IMG/VR virus record: IMGVR_UViG_3300044946_000177
Location: 1-64,000 of that record
Source of the DNA: a virus
Direction: 5' to 3' (one strand)
DNA length: 64,000 nucleotides
Of the stretch, positions 53,103 to 61,103 are shown piece by piece. The notes beneath the pieces were generated by a model. It was not told the DNA's origin and did no database searches. It saw only the letters and a program-made list of their open reading frames with translations. The stretch's first letter is position 1. Each line of letters begins with the position of its first letter. Both the position numbers and the translations under genes were made by a program.

Positions 53103-53848
53103 GGCGTCCCCCTTGGCGCGGCTTTGATCAGCTCAATCAACTTATGAGCCATGAGGATATACGCGGCGCTCTCGGCGCTCCACGCGGCGCTCTTGGCGCT
53201 CCTCGCGGCGCTCTCGGCGCTCCTCGCGGCGCTCCACGCGGCGCTCCACGCGGCGCTCCACGCGGCGCTCTCGGCGCTCCTCGCGGCGCTCTCGGCGCTC
53301 TCGGCGCTCTCGGCGCTCTCGGCGCTCCTCGCGGCGCTCCTCGCGGCGCTCTCGGCGCTCCTCGCGGCGCTCCACGCGGCGCTCCACGCGGCGCTCCTCG
53401 CGGCGCTCTCGGCGCCCGAATCAAGTCCTTTCGCTCGCAGTTCCAATACAGCGGCGCATTTTTTTATTGCATCGGATACAATCGGATGGTTAATACCGGA
53501 ATTAACTTGGTCGTCGGTCAGCAACCAATGCAGAAATTGCCAACCTACGCGCGACAAGTCAGCGCCGGACTGTACAGCAGACATGAACTGGACAGGCCAT
53601 TTTTTTGCGAGGTCGTTCGGAAGCCCTTCAAAAATGCAATCCTCCAAATGCGCCAGCATTTGAGGGATACCAAAGCGCTTTTCGTACTCGACATGATTGC
53701 CGGAATGGATCGTACAGCCGATCGCACACCCCTTTTCGTATTCCCAATATCTGCCTTTAACCAATTGATCGGCCTTGGCGTGCGCTTCCAGCTGTCTGAG
53801 AATGGCGGGCTTGGTGACGGTCGTGTTGACGAATGCGAGCATGGTCAT
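53099..53848 (-). CDS. Phage protein with Ala/Ser/Trp tandem repeats (249 aa)
   Basis: Start ATG 53848, right after the previous stop (TGACATG). The first 135 residues (ILRQLEAHAKADQLVKGRY, MLAHLEDCIFEGLPNDLAK, GADLSRVGWQFLHWLL) are a conserved helical phage domain of unknown role. Residues about 145-235 are built from four-residue SAAW, SAAR units and three-residue SAE units (RSAAWSAAWSAARSAESAAR). The end is YILMAHKLIELIKAA. The repeat probably forms a long helix or spacer and may vary by slippage. Confidence 0.6.
   Translation of the reverse strand: MTMLAFVNTTVTKPAILRQLEAHAKADQLVKGRYWEYEKGCAIGCTIHSGNHVEYEKRFGIPQMLAHLEDCIFEGLPNDLAKKWPVQFMSAVQSGADLSRVGWQFLHWLLTDDQVNSGINHPIVSDAIKKCAAVLELRAKGLDSGAESAARSAAWSAAWSAARSAESAARSAARSAESAESAESAESAARSAESAAWSAAWSAAWSAARSAESAARSAKSAAWSAESAAYILMAHKLIELIKAAPRGTP
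53164..53417. repeat. GC-rich 9/12 bp tandem repeats
   Basis: About 250 bases made of GCGGCGCTC units joined by CAC, CTC or TCG. All six frames are open here, which explains the long shadow ORFs on both strands. The minus strand encodes the SAAW/SAAR/SAE repeats. Confidence 0.9.
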
Positions 53849-53849
53849 G

Positions 53850-54059
53850 TCACGCGACCTCGACAAGATGGTCGGGCGGAAAACCGACGGAGTCACCATT
53901 CGTAAAATCAATCCGAACGCAAGTCGGCGTTTCGGTTTCCATGGCGTAGACTTCCGCATACTCAAATTCCCAACAATCCGATGTAGCGTAGCGATCGCCT
54001 TGCAAGTCTAAGCGATCGCCGACGCTTAATTCGTCGATTCGTTTTGTAGACGGTACCAT
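53850..54059 (-). CDS. Small hypothetical protein, first gene of the minus arm (69 aa)
   Basis: MVPSTKRIDELSVGDRLDLQ, then EFEYAEVYAMETETPTCVR and HLVEVA: a small beta-rich protein that resembles SH3-like phage proteins. ATG 54059 is preceded by AAGGGGAGT and lies about 25 bases from the predicted transcription start of the minus-arm promoter. Not recognised. Confidence 0.55.
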   Translation of the reverse strand: MVPSTKRIDELSVGDRLDLQGDRYATSDCWEFEYAEVYAMETETPTCVRIDFTNGDSVGFPPDHLVEVA

Positions 54060-54354: not shown

Positions 54355-54552
54355 ATGTGTGACTGCATCGAACGCGTTGATAACGACCTTCGAAAATACA
54401 ACGCTGCGATCGAAACGAACATTTTTGGCACTCCGATAGCCCTTGTACGCCTTTACAAGGTCGACGAGAAAAAACGAGGCAAGCCGCCATTGCTCCAAGC
54501 TGCTTTTTGCCCGTTCTGCGGTGAAAAGTACCAGCGGAGCGAATGTAAATGA
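54355..54552 (+). CDS. Small protein with CxxC at the end (65 aa)
   Basis: Starts MCDCIERVDNDLRKYNAAI and ends AAFCPFCGEKYQR, a typical single zinc knuckle at the C-terminus of small phage proteins. AGAGGA precedes the ATG. Its stop overlaps the primase ATG by four bases, so it is the first gene of the plus arm. Confidence 0.6.
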   Translation: MCDCIERVDNDLRKYNAAIETNIFGTPIALVRLYKVDEKKRGKPPLLQAAFCPFCGEKYQRSECK

Positions 54553-56831
54553 GCGCGATGCTGGAAGCCGCGTTAAGGTACGCCGCCCTCGGCTGGTCTG
54601 TTTTTCCCATCCATTCGATCCGGTTTGACGGCAAGTGCGGTTGCGGCAAAGAAGAATGCTGGAAAAACCCAAAAAACGCCGGAAAACATCCTCGGATCAA
54701 GTGGAAGGCCGGCGCGACGTGCGACGTCGAGACGGTGCGCGCGTATTGGACGAAATGGCCCAACGCGGGCATCGGCTGCGCAACGGGCCCGTCCGGCCTG
54801 CTGGTCGCGGATGGCGACGCGGCGGAAGGCATTCTGGCGCTGCGCGCGGTGGCTGGGCCCCTGCCTCCCACCGCGCGCAGCCGGACGGCGCGAGGCGTGC
54901 ACGTCTTCTTTCGGGGGCAGGGAGGCACGCGGTCGGATCCCAATCGGAAGCTCGATACGAGAGGCACGGGCGGATACGTAGTGCTTCCGCCGAGCCCGCA
55001 CGTCTCGGGGCACATTTACCGGTGGGAGGTCGAGCCGGAAGCCGGGATCGCGGAGGCGCCCGAGACGCTCGTGGCTTGGTCACTGGAAAAGAAGCGCCGC
55101 TTCGCCACTGTGCCGGGTACCCAGTTCAGCGAAGCGGCGCCCGCGCCCAGGACAGGCGACGATGACTTTACCACTAAACTTTCAGGCGCGCTAGTCGACT
55201 GGCACGAGATCGATCAAGCGCTGCGCACGATCCCGGCCGACTGCAAGATGGACACGTGGATCCGCGTCGGCATGGCGCTGCACGCCACGGGAGACAGCGG
55301 CGCGCTGGCGCGGTGGGACCAATGGAGCTCCAAGGGGGGCGACAAGTACCGCGGCCAGACCGAGACGGCGTACAAATGGACGACGTTCAAAGCGGGGGGA
55401 GGCGTGGGGCTCGGGACGCTGTTTGCGATCGCAAGGGAGCACGGTTTCAGAAGGGAGGTGATGCAATTTGACGCCGGTGGGAAACACCCCGATGAGACGA
55501 GGCCCCCGCTCTTGAACGGAGCGGGGGCCGAAACGCCTCACGGGATGAACGGGCACGCATCCGCACTGCCCGCCAGTTTCCGGGAGACGGCCATCCACTT
55601 CCCGGACGTGACCGAAGGGGGGAAGGTCAAGGCGACCTGCCGGAACGTGCGCATCGCCATGCGGCACCTCGGAATCACGGCCGAAGAGGACGAATTTCAT
55701 GATCGAATGCGAATAGGGGGGCAGCCGCTCGGGCAGTGGGCAGGCGAATTGACCGACAACGCAGTTTTTGCTCTGCGCTCGCTGATCGAGCACGAATACG
55801 GGTTCGATCCGCCCACGACCGCGACGTTCGAGGCAGCCGTGCAAGAGTGCATTGCGCGCCGGCACCACCCCATCAAGAATTATTTCGAATCATTGCAATG
55901 GGATCGTACGCCCAGGCTTGACACATGGCTGTGCCGCTACCTCGGCGCGGACGATAATCCTTTCAATCGGGCCGTGTCGCGCCTTAGCCTGATAGCCGCG
56001 GTCCGGCGCATACTCCAACCGGGGTGTAAATTCGATCAGATCATCGTCCTGGAGGGCGTTGAGGGAAAAGGAAAAAGCTCAGCGATCGAAATCTTGGCGG
56101 GAAGCGACAATTTCAGCGACCAATTAATTTTAGGACTCCGCGACAAAGAGCAACAGGAAGTGATCCAAGGCGTGTGGCTGTACGAAATTGCGGATCTCGC
56201 GGGCCACGGCCACGCGGAAGTCGAGAAGGTCAAGGCGTTTGCCTCTCGCACCATCGACAGGGCCAGGCCCGCTTATGGGAGAAAGCGCATCGACATCCCA
56301 AGGAGGTGCATATTTTTTGGCACAACCAACGATAAGTCCTATCTGAAGTCGCAAACGGGGAATCGACGCTTTTGGCCGGTGGAGTGCCGCCACGTCGATC
56401 TGGAGGCGCTACGGCGCGATCGGGATCAGCTGTGGGCCGAAGCCGTGCTCGCGGAGCGGGGCGCGTCCCTGGTGCTCCCGGAGGTGTTGTGGGGGTCCGC
56501 CGCGGCGCTCCAGGAAAGCAGGCGGGCGCACGATCCATGGGACGACAAGCTTTCGAACCTGGAGCGGACGACTTGGGCGAAGCTGGTCGAAACGGCAGAC
56601 GGCGCCGGCGAGTGGCGGGTGCCGTCGCGCACGCTGCTGGACGACGTGCTGGGACTGCCGAGCGACCGACAAAGCGACGTCGCCGCAAAGCGCTTGGCGT
56701 ACGCGATGCGACGACTTGGCTGGGAATGCAGGCTGTTCAGGATCGAGGGCGTACCCCACAGGGGGTATGTCAAGAGCGCTGATGCTTCCATCGCGGCGAA
56801 CCCGCCCAGTGGCCAGTCGATCAAAAAATAA
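54549..56831 (+). CDS. Prim-pol primase fused to superfamily 3 helicase
   Basis: A 760-residue replication initiator. Residues about 1-180 are a bifunctional primase/polymerase domain (ALGWSVFPIHSIRFDGKCG; WPNAGIGCATGPSGLLVAD with the D-x-D type GLLVADGD; RTARGVHVFFR). Residues about 215-300 form a PriCT-type linker (WHEIDQALRTIPADCKMDT, ARWDQWSSKGGDKY). Residues about 440-640 are a VirE/SF3-type helicase: Walker A EGVEGKGKSSAIE near 501, then GVWLYEIADLAG and FFGTTNDKSYL, then QTGNRRFWPV. It unwinds and primes the phage origin, probably near 57100. Confidence 0.8.
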   Translation: MSAMLEAALRYAALGWSVFPIHSIRFDGKCGCGKEECWKNPKNAGKHPRIKWKAGATCDVETVRAYWTKWPNAGIGCATGPSGLLVADGDAAEGILALRAVAGPLPPTARSRTARGVHVFFRGQGGTRSDPNRKLDTRGTGGYVVLPPSPHVSGHIYRWEVEPEAGIAEAPETLVAWSLEKKRRFATVPGTQFSEAAPAPRTGDDDFTTKLSGALVDWHEIDQALRTIPADCKMDTWIRVGMALHATGDSGALARWDQWSSKGGDKYRGQTETAYKWTTFKAGGGVGLGTLFAIAREHGFRREVMQFDAGGKHPDETRPPLLNGAGAETPHGMNGHASALPASFRETAIHFPDVTEGGKVKATCRNVRIAMRHLGITAEEDEFHDRMRIGGQPLGQWAGELTDNAVFALRSLIEHEYGFDPPTTATFEAAVQECIARRHHPIKNYFESLQWDRTPRLDTWLCRYLGADDNPFNRAVSRLSLIAAVRRILQPGCKFDQIIVLEGVEGKGKSSAIEILAGSDNFSDQLILGLRDKEQQEVIQGVWLYEIADLAGHGHAEVEKVKAFASRTIDRARPAYGRKRIDIPRRCIFFGTTNDKSYLKSQTGNRRFWPVECRHVDLEALRRDRDQLWAEAVLAERGASLVLPEVLWGSAAALQESRRAHDPWDDKLSNLERTTWAKLVETADGAGEWRVPSRTLLDDVLGLPSDRQSDVAAKRLAYAMRRLGWECRLFRIEGVPHRGYVKSADASIAANPPSGQSIKK

Positions 56832-57015
56832 TTTCTCTGTCGTCCTCTTGTTGCGTAACTAGGTGCCCTAGCTTGTGGTCGGGATCGCCATCTTTTTTCT
56901 CCGGTTTTCCAAAGTCGCGCTCGTACTGCACTTCACACACCGCGTCCTTGACGCGCTGCGAGTGCATCAAGCAGTTCGCTATGGCCAGCAGCAGTTCCAG
57001 TTGTGCCTTGGTCAT
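56821..57015 (-). CDS. Small hypothetical protein, convergent (64 aa)
   Basis: MTKAQLELLLAIANCLMHSQ, then VQYERDFGKPEKKDGDPDH. A Leu/Ala-rich helix and an acidic/basic tail. GAAGGGACAACGAAC precedes the ATG. Its end overlaps the primase gene by 11 bases. Not recognised. Confidence 0.5.
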   Translation of the reverse strand: MTKAQLELLLAIANCLMHSQRVKDAVCEVQYERDFGKPEKKDGDPDHKLGHLVTQQEDDREIIF

Positions 57016-57546
57016 GTTCGTTGTCCCTTCATTTGCTGCGTCAAAGATAGCAAAATCCGAAAGCGTTTAATAATCACGAAATATTTCAGCCTGAAATAAT
57101 CGATCAAAACGGTAACACGGCGTAACGCCGCGGTGTTACCAAAATTTATTAGCGTTTTCAATTTGGTAACATCTGTAACAGGAGTAACACCAATAAGTAA
57201 GACTAGTTGGATAATAGGAGTTATTATTAATACATAGGATTATATTCCAGAATCTTACAGGTGTAGGGGAGCGGTGTGACGCGGTGTGCGCGCCGTTACA
57301 CCATTGAAATCATTGTGGAATAAAAACGAAATCAGTGTTTTGGTTGGCTGTTACGGGTTTCCGCGTCTGCAGGTTGAACTTGGGTAGCTTATTACCTCTT
57401 TTGAAACAAAGTTGCGCAAATCTGGGTGCTTTTTGCAACTTTATGTGTTAACATATGCAGTTTTACAATAGGAAAAATCAGGTTTTCCTATAGGTGCTTA
57501 GGTGCTACAATACCTTTTTTGCTGAAACGAGCGCAGAAAAAATCCG
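57016..57546. other. AT-rich gene-free tract with iteron-like repeats (candidate origin)
   Basis: About 530 bases with no credible ORF. Copies of a GTAACA-type motif: GGTAACAC 57111, GTGTTACC 57133 (inverted), GGTAACAT 57165, TGTAACAG 57174, AGTAACAC 57183, GTTACACC 57295. Palindromes: TATTTCAGCCTGAAATA 57082-57098; GGTAACAC with GGTGTTACC 57111-57140; ATAGGAAAA with TTTTCCTAT 57468-57491. A tandem TAGGTGCT pair lies at 57491-57506. The tract follows the primase-helicase gene and is much richer in A/T than its surroundings. Origin or regulator-binding region is inferred. Confidence 0.5.
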
Positions 57547-57547
57547 T

Positions 57548-57575
57548 TTGACTCCCGTTTTAAATCGTGTTTAAT
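57548..57575 (+). promoter_or_regulatory. Cassette promoter 1
   Basis: TTGACT at 57548, then TTTAAT at 57570 (16 bases apart; TTAATA at 57571 gives 17). The following TAATAATTG matches the other two cassettes. A hairpin GCGCC-AATCAG-GGCGC and GC-rich leader follow before the gene at 57647. Confidence 0.55.
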
Positions 57576-57646
57576 AATTGTTGCGCCAATCAGGGCGCTT
57601 TCGGCCCTTCGTGGTGGCCGGGGCAACATGAAAGGGAATGAGGGAA

Positions 57647-57925
57647 ATGAACAAAATAATTAGGGGCGATTGGATGGAAAACGGCTATCGCTCAACTTTG
57701 GCCAAGCGGGAGTTGCGCATCACTATCGTGGATGGAAAGGCTTATGATCAGGAAATGTATGCATTTCCGTGCGGTCAACCGCTATTTAATGCGCGCCTTC
57801 AGCTAGATGCTTATGGCAACGTATCTGCTTACGGCGCCGTCTGGGAATTCCTGCCGGACGATGGCGAGATAGAGCGTGTTGGCGGTACCAGCTTTTTCTT
57901 GGAAGGGCGTCTAAACGGGGGATGA
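57647..57925 (+). CDS. Cassette gene 1, hypothetical (92 aa)
   Basis: ATG 57647 is set by comparing with the other cassettes (AAGGGAATGAGGGAA before the ATG). An upstream ATG at 57638 is in frame. The product is beta-rich (RSTLAKRELRITIVDGKAY, then LDAYGNVSAYGAVWEFLPD). Not recognised; a small accessory protein with its own promoter and a terminator after it. Confidence 0.5.
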   Translation: MNKIIRGDWMENGYRSTLAKRELRITIVDGKAYDQEMYAFPCGQPLFNARLQLDAYGNVSAYGAVWEFLPDDGEIERVGGTSFFLEGRLNGG

Positions 57926-57929
57926 TTCG

Positions 57930-58010
57930 CTAGTCGGTCTCCCGCTTCGGATCATGCAAGGCCGCTAATTCATCGGCCTTTTTCTTTGCTTCACGTTCCT
58001 CCGCTTGACG
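57930..58010 (-). pseudogene. Remnant of a regulator C-terminus, overlaps terminator
   Basis: On the minus strand the bases read QAEEREAKKKADELAALHDP and then stop at 57930. This matches the end of the gene at 59091 (KQAEEREKKKASNLLALER). The homology starts at the CAAGCGGAGGAACG block, upstream of which the frame closes. So a copied gene end now serves as the terminator between cassette 1 and 2. Alternatively this is chance similarity in charged sequence. Confidence 0.4.
57958..57984 (+). terminator. Terminator after cassette gene 1
   Basis: AAGGCCG, nine-base loop, CGGCCTT and TTTC. The tail continues CTTTGC. It lies 33 bases after the cassette 1 stop and 20 bases before the promoter of cassette 2. 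Confidence 0.7.
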
Positions 58011-58033
58011 CGTTCCTTGATTCGTGCTTTAAT
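58005..58033 (+). promoter_or_regulatory. Cassette promoter 2
   Basis: TTGACG (58005-58010), 17 bases, TTTAAT (58028-58033). The leader is ATTGCGTCGAAACATCTTGG, then AAGGGGAGTAAGGGAA before the ATG. It matches cassette 3 almost base for base from CTTTAATAATTGCG on. Confidence 0.65.
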
Positions 58034-58070
58034 AATTGCGTCGAAACATCTTGGAAGGGGAGTAAGGGAA

Positions 58071-58400
58071 ATGACGCAACACTACAGTGATCCAAGTCGC
58101 GAATCAGATAAATGGGCTCTGCCTGACATTGAAGTGTTTCAGCTTACAGCGCGCGAAGTTGCGGAACGGGATGAGGATGCGATTTACGAATACATGAAAG
58201 ACCCTAGGTTCAAGCTTGCCGCGATGAACGGTCGAATCCGTGATGCGATGTTTGATGAAATGATTGAGGATGAGGGTATTACCGGCGGTTGGTTTTACTG
58301 GTATTGTTTTCCTGGATGCATGCCAGAAGGCGATGCTATGGGGCCGTACGATACGCATGCTGAAGCGCTGGCTGCGGCGCAAGAGGACGCTGCTGGTTGA
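58071..58400 (+). CDS. Cassette gene 2, hypothetical (109 aa)
   Basis: ATG 58071 with GGAAGGGGAGTAAGGGAA upstream. Acidic, helical protein (DIEVFQLTAREVAERDEDA, IRDAMFDEMIEDEGITGGW, PYDTHAEALAAAQEDAAG). It ends in TGA, but the same frame downstream remains protein-like for about 50 codons, which is odd. Not recognised. Confidence 0.55.
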   Translation: MTQHYSDPSRESDKWALPDIEVFQLTAREVAERDEDAIYEYMKDPRFKLAAMNGRIRDAMFDEMIEDEGITGGWFYWYCFPGCMPEGDAMGPYDTHAEALAAAQEDAAG

Positions 58401-58547
58401 ATTGCTTGGGATTGTCTCGGCGGCTGCGCGTACAAGACGATTCGCGAGTTTTACGAAGCGCACCGCAAATATAAGGAACGCACGTATTTTGGCGACATGG
58501 TGCGAGAGGCGATATCGTACTTGGAAATCGCAGCAATAAACACCTTC
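58401..58547 (+). pseudogene. Protein-like tail after an in-frame stop
   Basis: In the frame of cassette gene 2, after TGA 58398-58400, the sequence reads IAWDCLGGCAYKTIREFYEA, then YKERTYFGDMVREAISYLE. There is no stop before the terminator at 58548. It may be the lost end of a longer gene (TGG to TGA), a readthrough product, or a separate gene without a normal start. The rest of the window uses TGA as stop. Confidence 0.3.
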
Positions 58548-58577
58548 AAGAGCGGCCAATTCGGCCGCTCTTTTTTC
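58548..58577 (+). terminator. Strong terminator between cassette 2 and 3
   Basis: AAGAGCGGCC, loop AATTC, GGCCGCTCTT and a run of six T. The following TTGACA of the next promoter begins one base after the T-run, so the two elements are fused. Confidence 0.85.
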
Positions 58578-58607
58578 TTGACACCCGAGCCAAAGCCGTG
58601 CTTTAAT
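58578..58607 (+). promoter_or_regulatory. Cassette promoter 3
   Basis: TTGACA (58578-58583), 18 bases, TTTAAT (58602-58607). The leader ATTGCGGCGAAACACCTTGG and GGAGTAAGGAAA is the same as cassette 2 except for a few changes. It starts directly at the preceding terminator. Confidence 0.65.
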
Positions 58608-58644
58608 AATTGCGGCGAAACACCTTGGAAGGGGAGTAAGGAAA

Positions 58645-59094
58645 ATGACACGTTGGAAATACATGGGTGATGTTAGCCTGGAGTATGGCGGGACGTTTTA
58701 CGATTTTTCGACGTTCAAAGACGGTTATGTCGATGCAGTTGAAGTTACCGATCTGGACAGCGCTTCGGGTTTTCGCGGTGCGGTTATGATAGAACGGAAG
58801 TCAATTATTATTGACGAAAAACGAGTGCGGCAATCGCTAAGCGTGATCGGTGCTTCGTTATTGGAGAATGGCGATATAGACGATAATGGGCGGATTGTTG
58901 CCAAGGGTACGGCGCAGCATCGTTTTATTCAGGCTTACGCTTGCCAAGTTTACGGGCATTACGACACTGATTCGCACGTTATTGTTCAGCTTGAACGCGA
59001 CGGCCCTATGCAATGCGATGGTTGGAAGGCGGAAAAACGCCTGCGGGCAAACGCCAGTTTGGAGCGTTACGTGCGGCGGGAATTTTTGCGTTAA
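58645..59094 (+). CDS. Cassette gene 3, hypothetical (149 aa)
   Basis: ATG 58645 with GGAAGGGGAGTAAGGAAA. The product (RWKYMGDVSLEYGGTFYDF, then SGFRGAVMIERKSIIIDEK, AYACQVYGHYDTDSHVIVQ) is alpha/beta and unlike its cassette neighbours in sequence. Not recognised. Its stop overlaps the convergent gene by four bases. Confidence 0.55.
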   Translation: MTRWKYMGDVSLEYGGTFYDFSTFKDGYVDAVEVTDLDSASGFRGAVMIERKSIIIDEKRVRQSLSVIGASLLENGDIDDNGRIVAKGTAQHRFIQAYACQVYGHYDTDSHVIVQLERDGPMQCDGWKAEKRLRANASLERYVRREFLR

Positions 59095-59528
59095 GCGCTT
59101 TTCTCAGGGGCGCGTTCAAGGGCCAGCAAATTGCTGGCCTTTTTCTTTTCGCGTTCCTCCGCTTGTTTCGCGCGCCACGCGTGCAGCTGCGCTGTGCCTC
59201 GGATTGCTGGGCCTGGTCCGCGTTTAGCGAGCGAGCGCGCCACGTTTTTGAGCGCCGTAGCGCGCCGCTCTAATTCATGCCGAATCATTTCCGACGCCCA
59301 ATCGGGCGGGATGCGATGACCATAGCGCCAATTGCGAATTGTCGCGTATTGCGCGCGATGTTCGAAGAAATTGATGAGCTTGTCACGGGTGTAGGGCGGC
59401 TCGATTAGGAGCACCATTGCGCGCCAGAAAGGCGATGCTTCCGTCTTGCCCGGGAGCGAATCGCGGTGCTCTAGAGGCTTGCTATCGCGCGCGGCAAGGG
59501 CAAATTCCGATTGTCGGTCAAGCGTCAT
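59091..59528 (-). CDS. Regulator-like protein (145 aa)
   Basis: Middle INFFEHRAQYATIRNWRYG, then HRIPPDWASEMIRHELERR, resembles a small class of phage helix-turn-helix proteins (T-I-R-N-W-R-x-G-x-R-x-x-P-x-W). The C-terminus is basic-acidic helical (EREKKKASNLLALERAPEK). It converges on cassette gene 3 and has palindromes upstream (59648-59667 and 59769-59795). The Shine-Dalgarno is weak. A DNA-binding role is likely but not proved. Confidence 0.5.
   Translation of the reverse strand: MTLDRQSEFALAARDSKPLEHRDSLPGKTEASPFWRAMVLLIEPPYTRDKLINFFEHRAQYATIRNWRYGHRIPPDWASEMIRHELERRATALKNVARSLAKRGPGPAIRGTAQLHAWRAKQAEEREKKKASNLLALERAPEKSA
59118..59146 (+). terminator. Terminator after cassette gene 3
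   Basis: GGCCAGC, AAATT loop, GCTGGCC and TTTTTC. It lies inside the coding end of the minus-strand regulator gene (KKKASNLLALER on that strand). The flank after it (CGTTCCTCCGCTTG) is the same as after the terminator of cassette 1. Confidence 0.7.
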
Positions 59529-59870: not shown

Positions 59871-60098
59871 ATGGACCCGGCTCAAGAGGATTCGGAGGTG
59901 CTTCAACGCTCCGCCACCCCGGAATTTTTCAGAAAAAATTTGCCTTCACCCGGCGCATATGCAATTGTTCACTACATGAAGCATATCAAGTGCGGTTTGT
60001 ACTGGTACGATTTCTGGGTTGGAGCTTATTGGGATCGGCGTAAGCGAATCCTGTACGTTTGCCCGTTCCCGATGTTGTGTATCGAGCTATGGTTTTAG
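59871..60098 (+). CDS. Small aromatic protein (75 aa)
   Basis: ATG 59871; an in-frame ATG at 59976 gives the conserved-looking part only (MKHIKCGLYWYDFWVGAYW, DRRKRILYVCPFPMLCIEL). This W-x-D-x-W-x-G-x-Y-x-D-R pattern is common in small phage proteins of unknown role. Neither start has a good ribosome binding site. Confidence 0.5.
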   Translation: MDPAQEDSEVLQRSATPEFFRKNLPSPGAYAIVHYMKHIKCGLYWYDFWVGAYWDRRKRILYVCPFPMLCIELWF

Positions 60099-60135
60099 TG
60101 CATCCCCTCTCGTTTCGTGCTTATGATTCCCGCCG

Positions 60136-60568: not shown

Positions 60569-61048
60569 ATGCCGACCGTAAATTACGACTGGACCCCCGA
60601 CCGCGTCGAGAAACTCAAGTCGCTCTTCGCCGACGGCCTGTCTTTCTGCCAGATAGCCTCCGAGTTCGCGATGACCCGCTCCGCGATCATGGGCAAGGCG
60701 CATCGTCTTGGTTTGCAGCGCGCGGTCCATCCGCGCCTCGGCGGGCGCTTACCTCGCAAGGATCCTCGCATCAAGAACCCCGGCGCCCAGAACCGCGCGC
60801 GCATCTCCAGGATTGTCGACGGACCTGTTGTCAACCCGCAAGGCAATCCGCCCGGCGATCCCGCCGGCCAGGACATCCCCAAGCGGCAGCGCAAGACGAT
60901 CTTAACGGTTGGCCGCGAGCACTGTAAATTCGGAATTGGCGATCCGCGCGAGAAAGGCTTTTTCTTTTGCGGCGCCATCAGGCAATTCCCGCTCCCCTAC
61001 TGCGCGGCGCACGCGCGGGTATGCTTCCGCCTCGCCAGGGGCTCTTGA
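60569..61048 (+). CDS. gcrA: GcrA-like cell-cycle regulator
   Basis: A 159-residue GcrA homologue. N-terminal helix-turn-helix: YDWTPDRVEKLKSLFADGL, then SFCQIASEFAMTRSAIMGK and AHRLGL. C-terminal domain: HCKFGIGDPREKGFFFCGA, then PYCAAHARVC. In Caulobacter and other alphaproteobacteria GcrA binds sigma-70 and CcrM-methylated GANTC promoters to set cell-cycle transcription. A phage copy could steer host polymerase or replication control. Start ATG 60569. Confidence 0.85.
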   Translation: MPTVNYDWTPDRVEKLKSLFADGLSFCQIASEFAMTRSAIMGKAHRLGLQRAVHPRLGGRLPRKDPRIKNPGAQNRARISRIVDGPVVNPQGNPPGDPAGQDIPKRQRKTILTVGREHCKFGIGDPREKGFFFCGAIRQFPLPYCAAHARVCFRLARGS

Positions 61049-61103
61049 CACGATGTAGTGAACTGCACTACGTTCTTTCCCGGCCACCTCCAAGGTGGCC
61101 GGG
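61045..61103 (+). promoter_or_regulatory. Promoter, operator-like palindrome and hairpin after gcrA
   Basis: TTGACA (61045-61050) overlaps the gcrA stop; TACGTT follows 18 bases later as a weak -10. Between them the palindrome GTAGTGAACTGCACTAC (61055-61071) looks like an operator. CCCGGCCACCT with loop CCA and AGGTGGCCGGG (61079-61103) is an 11 bp perfect hairpin with no T-run, so it may be an RNA structure or attenuator rather than a terminator. Confidence 0.5.

Follow-up and report, generated by a model that had tools for sequence, protein, structure and literature searches.

Repeated terminator-promoter junctions in a probable gene-exchange slot of an uncultured phage family

The window analysed here is the whole 64-kb stretch of DNA taken from a 66.3-kb virus record (G000). 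Alongside a VapE/Prim-Pol primase-helicase and a GcrA protein, it encodes a glycosyltransferase-like protein, a family-A-type DNA polymerase and an SNF2-type helicase. The presence of GcrA suggests that the host of the virus is probably an alphaproteobacterium. IMG/VR contains at least 110 relatives of its major capsid protein (MCP), many of them on contigs of 62-68 kb; named phage records contain distant relatives only, and the virus belongs to an MCP family of its own. A search of phage DNA records with the region described below returned no match. That region, hereafter the slot, lies between the primase-helicase and a convergent gene and is occupied by three small cassettes (Table 1). Its GC content is 50.5% against 57.4% for the genome, the fifth lowest value among the 312 windows compared. 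A first-pass annotation had read 57548-59146 as three self-contained promoter-gene-terminator units, and this description holds, with every string that it quoted lying at the position given for it. A single long ORF across the slot was considered and rejected on the basis of the ORF listing.

Table 1. Coordinates of the slot, its cassettes and the genes that flank it
Feature	Position	Strand	Description
VapE/Prim-Pol primase-helicase	54549-56831		
Minus-strand leader	57007..57105	-	95% identical over 99 nt with G001
Promoter P1	57548..57580	+	TTGACT at 57548, 16 nt, TTTAAT at 57570, AATTG
Cassette 1 gene c1	57647..57925	+	92 aa (95 aa from an alternative ATG at 57638)
Terminator T1	57958..57985	+	fold z -2.5
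Promoter P2	58005..58038	+	TTGACG at 58005, 17 nt, TTTAAT at 58028, AATTG
Leader unit of cassette 2	58023..58075	+	CGTGCTTTAATAATTGCG..CGAAACA..TTGGAAGGGGAGTAAGG, ribosome-binding site, start
Cassette 2 gene c2	58071..58400	+	109 aa, acidic, pI 4.2; small phage protein family
Remnant behind c2	58401..58547	+	147 nt, 3' part of an older gene
Terminator T2	58548..58577	+	10-bp stem and T tract; z -6.1
Promoter P3	58578..58612	+	TTGACA at 58578, 18 nt, TTTAAT at 58602, AATTGCG
Cassette 3 gene c3	58645..59094	+	149 aa
Terminator T3	59118..59146		z -4.7; within the 3'-terminal coding part of the convergent gene
Convergent gene	59091..59528	-	145 aa, basic, HTH-like; the tail copies derive from its 3' end
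GcrA protein	60569-61048		

Each cassette opens with a sigma70-type promoter, predicted from its match to the consensus, and within each lies one of exactly three copies of TTTAATAATTG (at 57570, 58028 and 58602; 0.31 expected, one mismatch allowed). The wider pattern TTGAC-N17-19-TTTAAT likewise occurs three times in the 64-kb window, always in the slot, against 0.017 per simulated window. The default promoter scan missed P1-P3 because it demands an A at the second position of the -10 element. A stretch of 53 nt is common to cassettes 2 and 3 at 94% identity (E 1e-17 by self-BLAST), in keeping with the common leader previously claimed for them, and the leader unit of cassette 2 is also common to the related genomes G001 and G002. 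Over 45 nt, leader identity is 0.93 between c2 and c3 and 0.91-0.98 among four cassettes from three genomes, the other two preceding a 66-residue gene in G001 and an 82-residue gene in G002. Cassette 1 shares the TTTAATAATTG part, as had been noted, and its leader departs from those of cassettes 2 and 3 beyond it; before its start codon there is a weak 21-nt purine-rich match to the others (81-86%).

Other motifs were observed in and around these promoters. A canonical CtrA-type site, TTAA-N7-TTAA (57560-57574), lies over the -10 region of P1 and is conserved in G002 and G003; two such sites occur in the whole window, with 0.31 expected, and we treat the site at P1 as a lead only. The CcrM methylation site GANTC is depleted across the window (209 against 300 expected). 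One copy lies over the -35 box of P1 and another (58019) in the P2 spacer, although its presence in two of the three promoters is a weak signal, about 0.11 being expected per promoter from the window frequency. The minus-strand leader precedes a 64-residue gene (56821-57015) in the window and an unrelated 94-residue gene in G001.

The genes themselves had been described as unrelated, and comparison of c2 with c3 agrees: after the start codon, their DNA is 0.57-0.60 identical, the level of random 60-mers (0.57 +/- 0.04). No slot protein of the window gave a Pfam match above cut-off or a PADLOC match. For c1, PHROGs returned one marginal match (E 0.012), and neither phage records nor the fetched family loci contained a relative. 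Homologues of c2 are present on 11 viral contigs (55-75% identical), with this leader upstream in none of the 11. A structural model of c2 (pLDDT 84) found no convincing fold match in the PDB, and its matches in genome contigs, four in number and all in metagenome bins, were too few and weak to point to a host. The fold prediction for c3 was unusable (pLDDT 33). Distant relatives of c3 (29-34% identical) are found in the unrelated phages Erythrobacter XM05, Achromobacter 2-1 and BcepSauron/Saruman, and in Mesorhizobium Cp1R7A-A1, where the relative adjoins DUF932; the search method applied to viral contigs recovered none, nor, as a weak negative, did a search of 40 family records.

A leader repeated in tandem at 94% identity could reflect a recent tandem duplication, in which one cassette was copied, its genes diverged and the shared leaders record common descent within the phage. 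Indeed, unequal crossing-over at such repeats would make copies. However, the gene bodies retain no residual similarity, the relatives of c2 and c3 reside in different, unrelated phage groups, and in related genomes still other genes stand behind equal leaders. Tandem duplication is thus largely refuted by the unrelated gene families, and we give it hardly any credence; the cassettes were likewise rejected as tandem paralogues, their gene bodies being at random-DNA identity.

Three relatives allow the slot to be compared between genomes. A scan of 2.9 million viral contigs with the leader recovered G001 (27 kb); G002 (63.7 kb) was found by a second pattern and G003 (66.6 kb) through the convergent gene. 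An IMG/VR scan for TTGACN{15,21}GCTTTAATAATTG gave 24 stretches, two contigs proving real on inspection of their context, and a scan with a 16-mer from P1 gave 65 stretches, two relatives already known among them. The flanking genes align across all four genomes (G000-G003), and G001, G002 and G003 carry the window's promoters, leaders and terminators at the equivalent place with differing genes behind them. The P1 block is 96-97% identical in G002 and G003 up to 57604; behind it stands c1 in the window, and a DUF932 gene with a second ORF in those two relatives. The P2/P3 leader is followed by c2 and c3 in the window, by the 66-residue gene in G001 and by the 82-residue gene in G002, with identities among these genes of 0.52-0.67, again at the random-DNA level. 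A 67-residue gene of G001 has the same type of promoter as P2/P3 and a diverged leader, and the T2-P3 terminator-promoter unit recurs in all three relatives. The exact leader was found in four closely related genomes only; other family members have different promoter sequences at the equivalent spot.

The first-pass annotation had taken the region for a recurrent insertion slot in which small accessory genes share an expression signal, and had named a leader found nowhere outside this phage as evidence against it. The leader does occur in three related genomes, preceding different genes there, and the proposal is supported. The content of the slot is highly variable, its 79 ORFs in 25 genomes (from crude ORF calls) falling into 61 clusters, 48 of which are singletons. 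The bordering glycosyltransferase is conserved in 14 genomes and GcrA in the four closest.

Several slots retain parts of former genes. When translated, the remnant behind c2 resembles sequences in the slots of G023 (54%, E 5e-10) and of G040 (E 4e-7). This remnant, together with the relatives of c2 that occur elsewhere without the leader, makes it most likely that c2 took the place of an earlier gene while the leader stayed constant. In G002, the first codons of c3 (MTRWKYMGD) are kept after the leader and divergence sets in thereafter. G003 has a T2-type terminator, a shortened promoter and 49 nt of a gene 3' end, the intact homologue of which is the last slot gene of G007, and in G001 the second gene of the DUF932 operon survives as a 3' end only.

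These traces bear on whether the junctions take any part in the turnover. Under ordinary regulatory conservation, strong early promoters in use would be kept and genes would be exchanged nonhomologously, without the junctions mediating the process. The position of c2 between the leader and the remnant of another gene is what nonhomologous replacement would leave, and the GC content of the cassettes falls below that of the genome, as in lambdoid morons. We nevertheless consider this explanation unlikely: near-identity spans terminator, leader and ribosome-binding site and then stops, in the comparison of c3 with G002 it includes the first codons, and duplicated tails and promoter units are the expected leftovers of recombination between repeats.

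As had been claimed, each cassette ends in a hairpin of its own, T1 being a modest one and the third overlapping minus-strand coding sequence. In a stem-loop scan for perfect stems of at least 7 bp, T1-P2 and T2-P3 were the only terminator-promoter composites in the 64 kb. The convergent gene, homologues of which were found in 21 of the 50 family records searched, many of these records being fragments, encodes a protein with no match in Pfam and labelled HTH-like by judgement of its sequence. The minus strand of 57948-58007 translates as QAEEREAKKKADELAALHDP, an old duplicate of the C-terminal end that the G002-type allele of the convergent gene encodes; the intact tail of the gene in G002 is QAEEREAKKKAAELAAMHNP, and its end is 89% identical to the T1 region at the DNA level over 65 nt (E 8e-18). 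Besides the intact tail, two tail copies are present in G001 and one in G003.

The same pattern is seen further afield. The distant relative G022 uses an unrelated promoter (TTGACAGGGTGATATTTAGGGAGTACATAAG). Its 78-nt promoter unit recurs at 97% identity, and so do, at 95%, the last 58 nt of the convergent gene, stop codon included. G023 carries a duplicated tail, then a promoter similar to that of G022 and another gene; G007 provides a weaker case (46 nt, 80%), and G015 and G017 have yet another terminator-promoter unit in common. Most terminators between cassettes are old duplicates of the convergent gene's 3' terminus, still readable as a C-terminal peptide. T2 and its counterparts in relatives have no tail copy, and hence not every junction is explained by tail copying. 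In the slots of G022 and G023 (loci L192 and L191), the ribosome-binding site of some leaders is immediately preceded by a GC-rich hairpin and T tract (..GCCGGTCGCGACGTGCGGCCGGCTTTTTAAGGGAGGG..) that resembles an attenuator.

Integrative elements insert at tRNA genes or gene ends and leave repeated 3' ends behind them. The old tails at the junctions resemble displaced attachment repeats of this kind, as would be produced if an integrase-like enzyme acted at the 3' end of the convergent gene and the repeats were att-like. We find such site-specific insertion very unlikely. Site-specific integrative cassettes have a constant core at their junctions and a recombinase, and neither is recognisable in the slot: the tail copy stops after CGCTTG in the G000 clade, after GATTCGC in G022 and after GGCTTTTT in G023, a variation between lineages that leaves no common core, and no recognisable recombinase is encoded in the slot cassettes. 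The tail-less T2-type junctions also argue against it.

Differences between the genomes were also observed outside the slot. The window, G001 and G003 all retain a second conserved leader (60093-60134; GTAGTGCATCCCCTCTC..CGTGCTTATAAT), and the genes behind it differ: in the window it precedes a 111-residue gene, in G001 a Dam-type methylase; the corresponding spot of G002 holds an HNH gene. Just after gcrA, at 61045-61074, is a promoter-like TTGACACGATGTAGTGAACTGCACTACGTT with an internal inverted repeat, which is present in G000-G003, diverged in G004, and may be an operator. The C-terminal part of the primase-helicase exists as two alleles, one in the window and G002 and the other in G001 and G003 (97% between these two), which indicates that mosaic exchange reaches this core gene as well. 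Upstream of the primase-helicase, 53144-53905 contains GC-rich tandem repeats (GALGAPRGALGAPRG.. if translated), and G002 and G004 also have tandem repeats in the stretch fetched around that part of the genome.

Conserved signals, differing genes, truncated remnants, duplicated tails and the recurrence of the arrangement in distant lineages are all directly visible in these genomes. We consider it probable that the slot is a site of gene exchange, composed of independent cassettes for which the repeated terminator-promoter junctions serve as exchange homology. Host sigma70 RNA polymerase would transcribe each cassette separately, from the conserved promoter and leader to its own terminator. 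With a separate promoter and terminator for every cassette, a gene could therefore be swapped and its neighbours left undisturbed. The near-identical junctions would supply short homologies for gain, loss and exchange during co-infection. At the right border, formed by the 3' end of the convergent HTH-like gene, the last codons would double as a terminator, and cassettes added there would have left the tail copies that now act as terminators between cassettes. We infer the start and timing of transcription, and homologous recombination as the agent of exchange. Several points weigh against this reading: among the genes scanned no recombinase was identified, a PDDEXK_1-domain protein being the only find; the T2-type junctions have no tail copy; T1 is a modest hairpin; and the exact leader is confined to four genomes. 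Early timing and functions directed at the host, in early takeover or counter-defence, are suggested by the promoter type, the small size of the genes and their company, which includes DUF932 in the slot and Dam-type methylase and HNH genes in the neighbouring variable spot. The first-pass annotation, too, had named anti-host factors as a possibility.

It is tempting to speculate that, throughout the family, cassettes accumulate at a dedicated landing site formed by the 3' terminus of this gene, with each addition regenerating the tail and converting the old tail into a terminator, and that the array is regulated by the HTH-like protein, joined at P1 by host CtrA or phage GcrA. This extension is possible, but we hold it to be doubtful.

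Similar arrangements are known from other viruses. The PeSLs of T4-type phages (Arbiol 2010; Comeau 2014), as outlined in the papers that cite them (PMC4503421, PMC3950731), are composite promoter/stem-loop motifs that lie between variable small ORFs, are repeated in a hyperplastic region and have been proposed to permit gene shuffling between related phages. On that outline, T1-P2 and T2-P3 are comparable units of intergenic terminator stem-loop and promoter, and in G000-G003 such units recur on either side of variable small ORFs within a plastic region. The mosaic junctions, remnants and duplications are consistent with junctions that would mediate recombination between phages. The window virus, however, is not T4-like, having its own MCP family, a genome of about 62-68 kb and a probable alphaproteobacterial host; its promoter, TTGAC-N17-19-TTTAAT, is not of the T4 early type and varies by lineage, and its stem-loop often copies the 3' coding end of the convergent gene. 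By this analogy, the junctions would work like a PeSL without being a T4-type element, the recurrent reuse of the convergent gene 3' end being the distinguishing feature.

A lambdoid moron is an ORF with its own promoter and terminator and a base composition unlike that of the genome (PMC1524935). The window cassettes are similarly single ORFs with their own predicted promoter and terminator, in a slot of lower GC content than the genome. They differ in forming several tandem units with near-identical signals, in a slot that is occupied in all relatives examined. Independent expression, often from a prophage, is a further trait of morons. In the haloarchaeal virus HGTV-1, a promoter-like motif with an inverted repeat precedes many ORFs, and its authors draw the comparison with PeSLs (PMC3950731); the repeated motif upstream of ORFs is alike, but the element is archaeal TATA-like and from another domain of life.

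Small genes that each follow a near-identical upstream unit are also found in Erythrobacter XM05 (152 kb) and Mesorhizobium Cp1R7A-A1 (131 kb), both of which hold a c3 relative. These phages are larger, however, with many TTAA/CtrA-type repeats and an unrelated unit sequence. The c3 relative of XM05 lies within an array with eight copies of the upstream unit, and that of Cp1R7A-A1 among repeated TTAA-rich units. In XM05 (locus L210, 1715-6386), the eight copies are 62 nt long (GTGGAAAAAGTGCTTGACCGAATCGGTGGAG..) and precede small genes, with TTAA-rich repeats and GAGGGGCTTCGGCCCCTC hairpins nearby. CtrA binds and activates a promoter of Cp1R7A-A1 (PMC9437464).

By analogy with PeSLs and lambdoid morons, the terminator-promoter modules most likely provide both homology for recombination and a fixed signal for early expression. 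The first-pass annotation had seen here a candidate for a new system. The slot itself is borne out; the claim of newness was too strong, since PeSLs and morons were already known. This kind of gene-swapping site has been described in other phages, and what is new is that the stop signals are often the leftover ends of a neighbouring gene.

Our findings provide a concrete, sequence-defined way to find accessory genes of fast turnover, namely by reading between repeated terminator-promoter junctions, and one that is applicable to the uncultured phages of this large family (at least 110 related contigs). They suggest that promoter-terminator shuffling modules arose independently in smaller phages of what are probably alphaproteobacteria. 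Moreover, past insertions can be traced in these genomes, which makes the origin of such modules testable.
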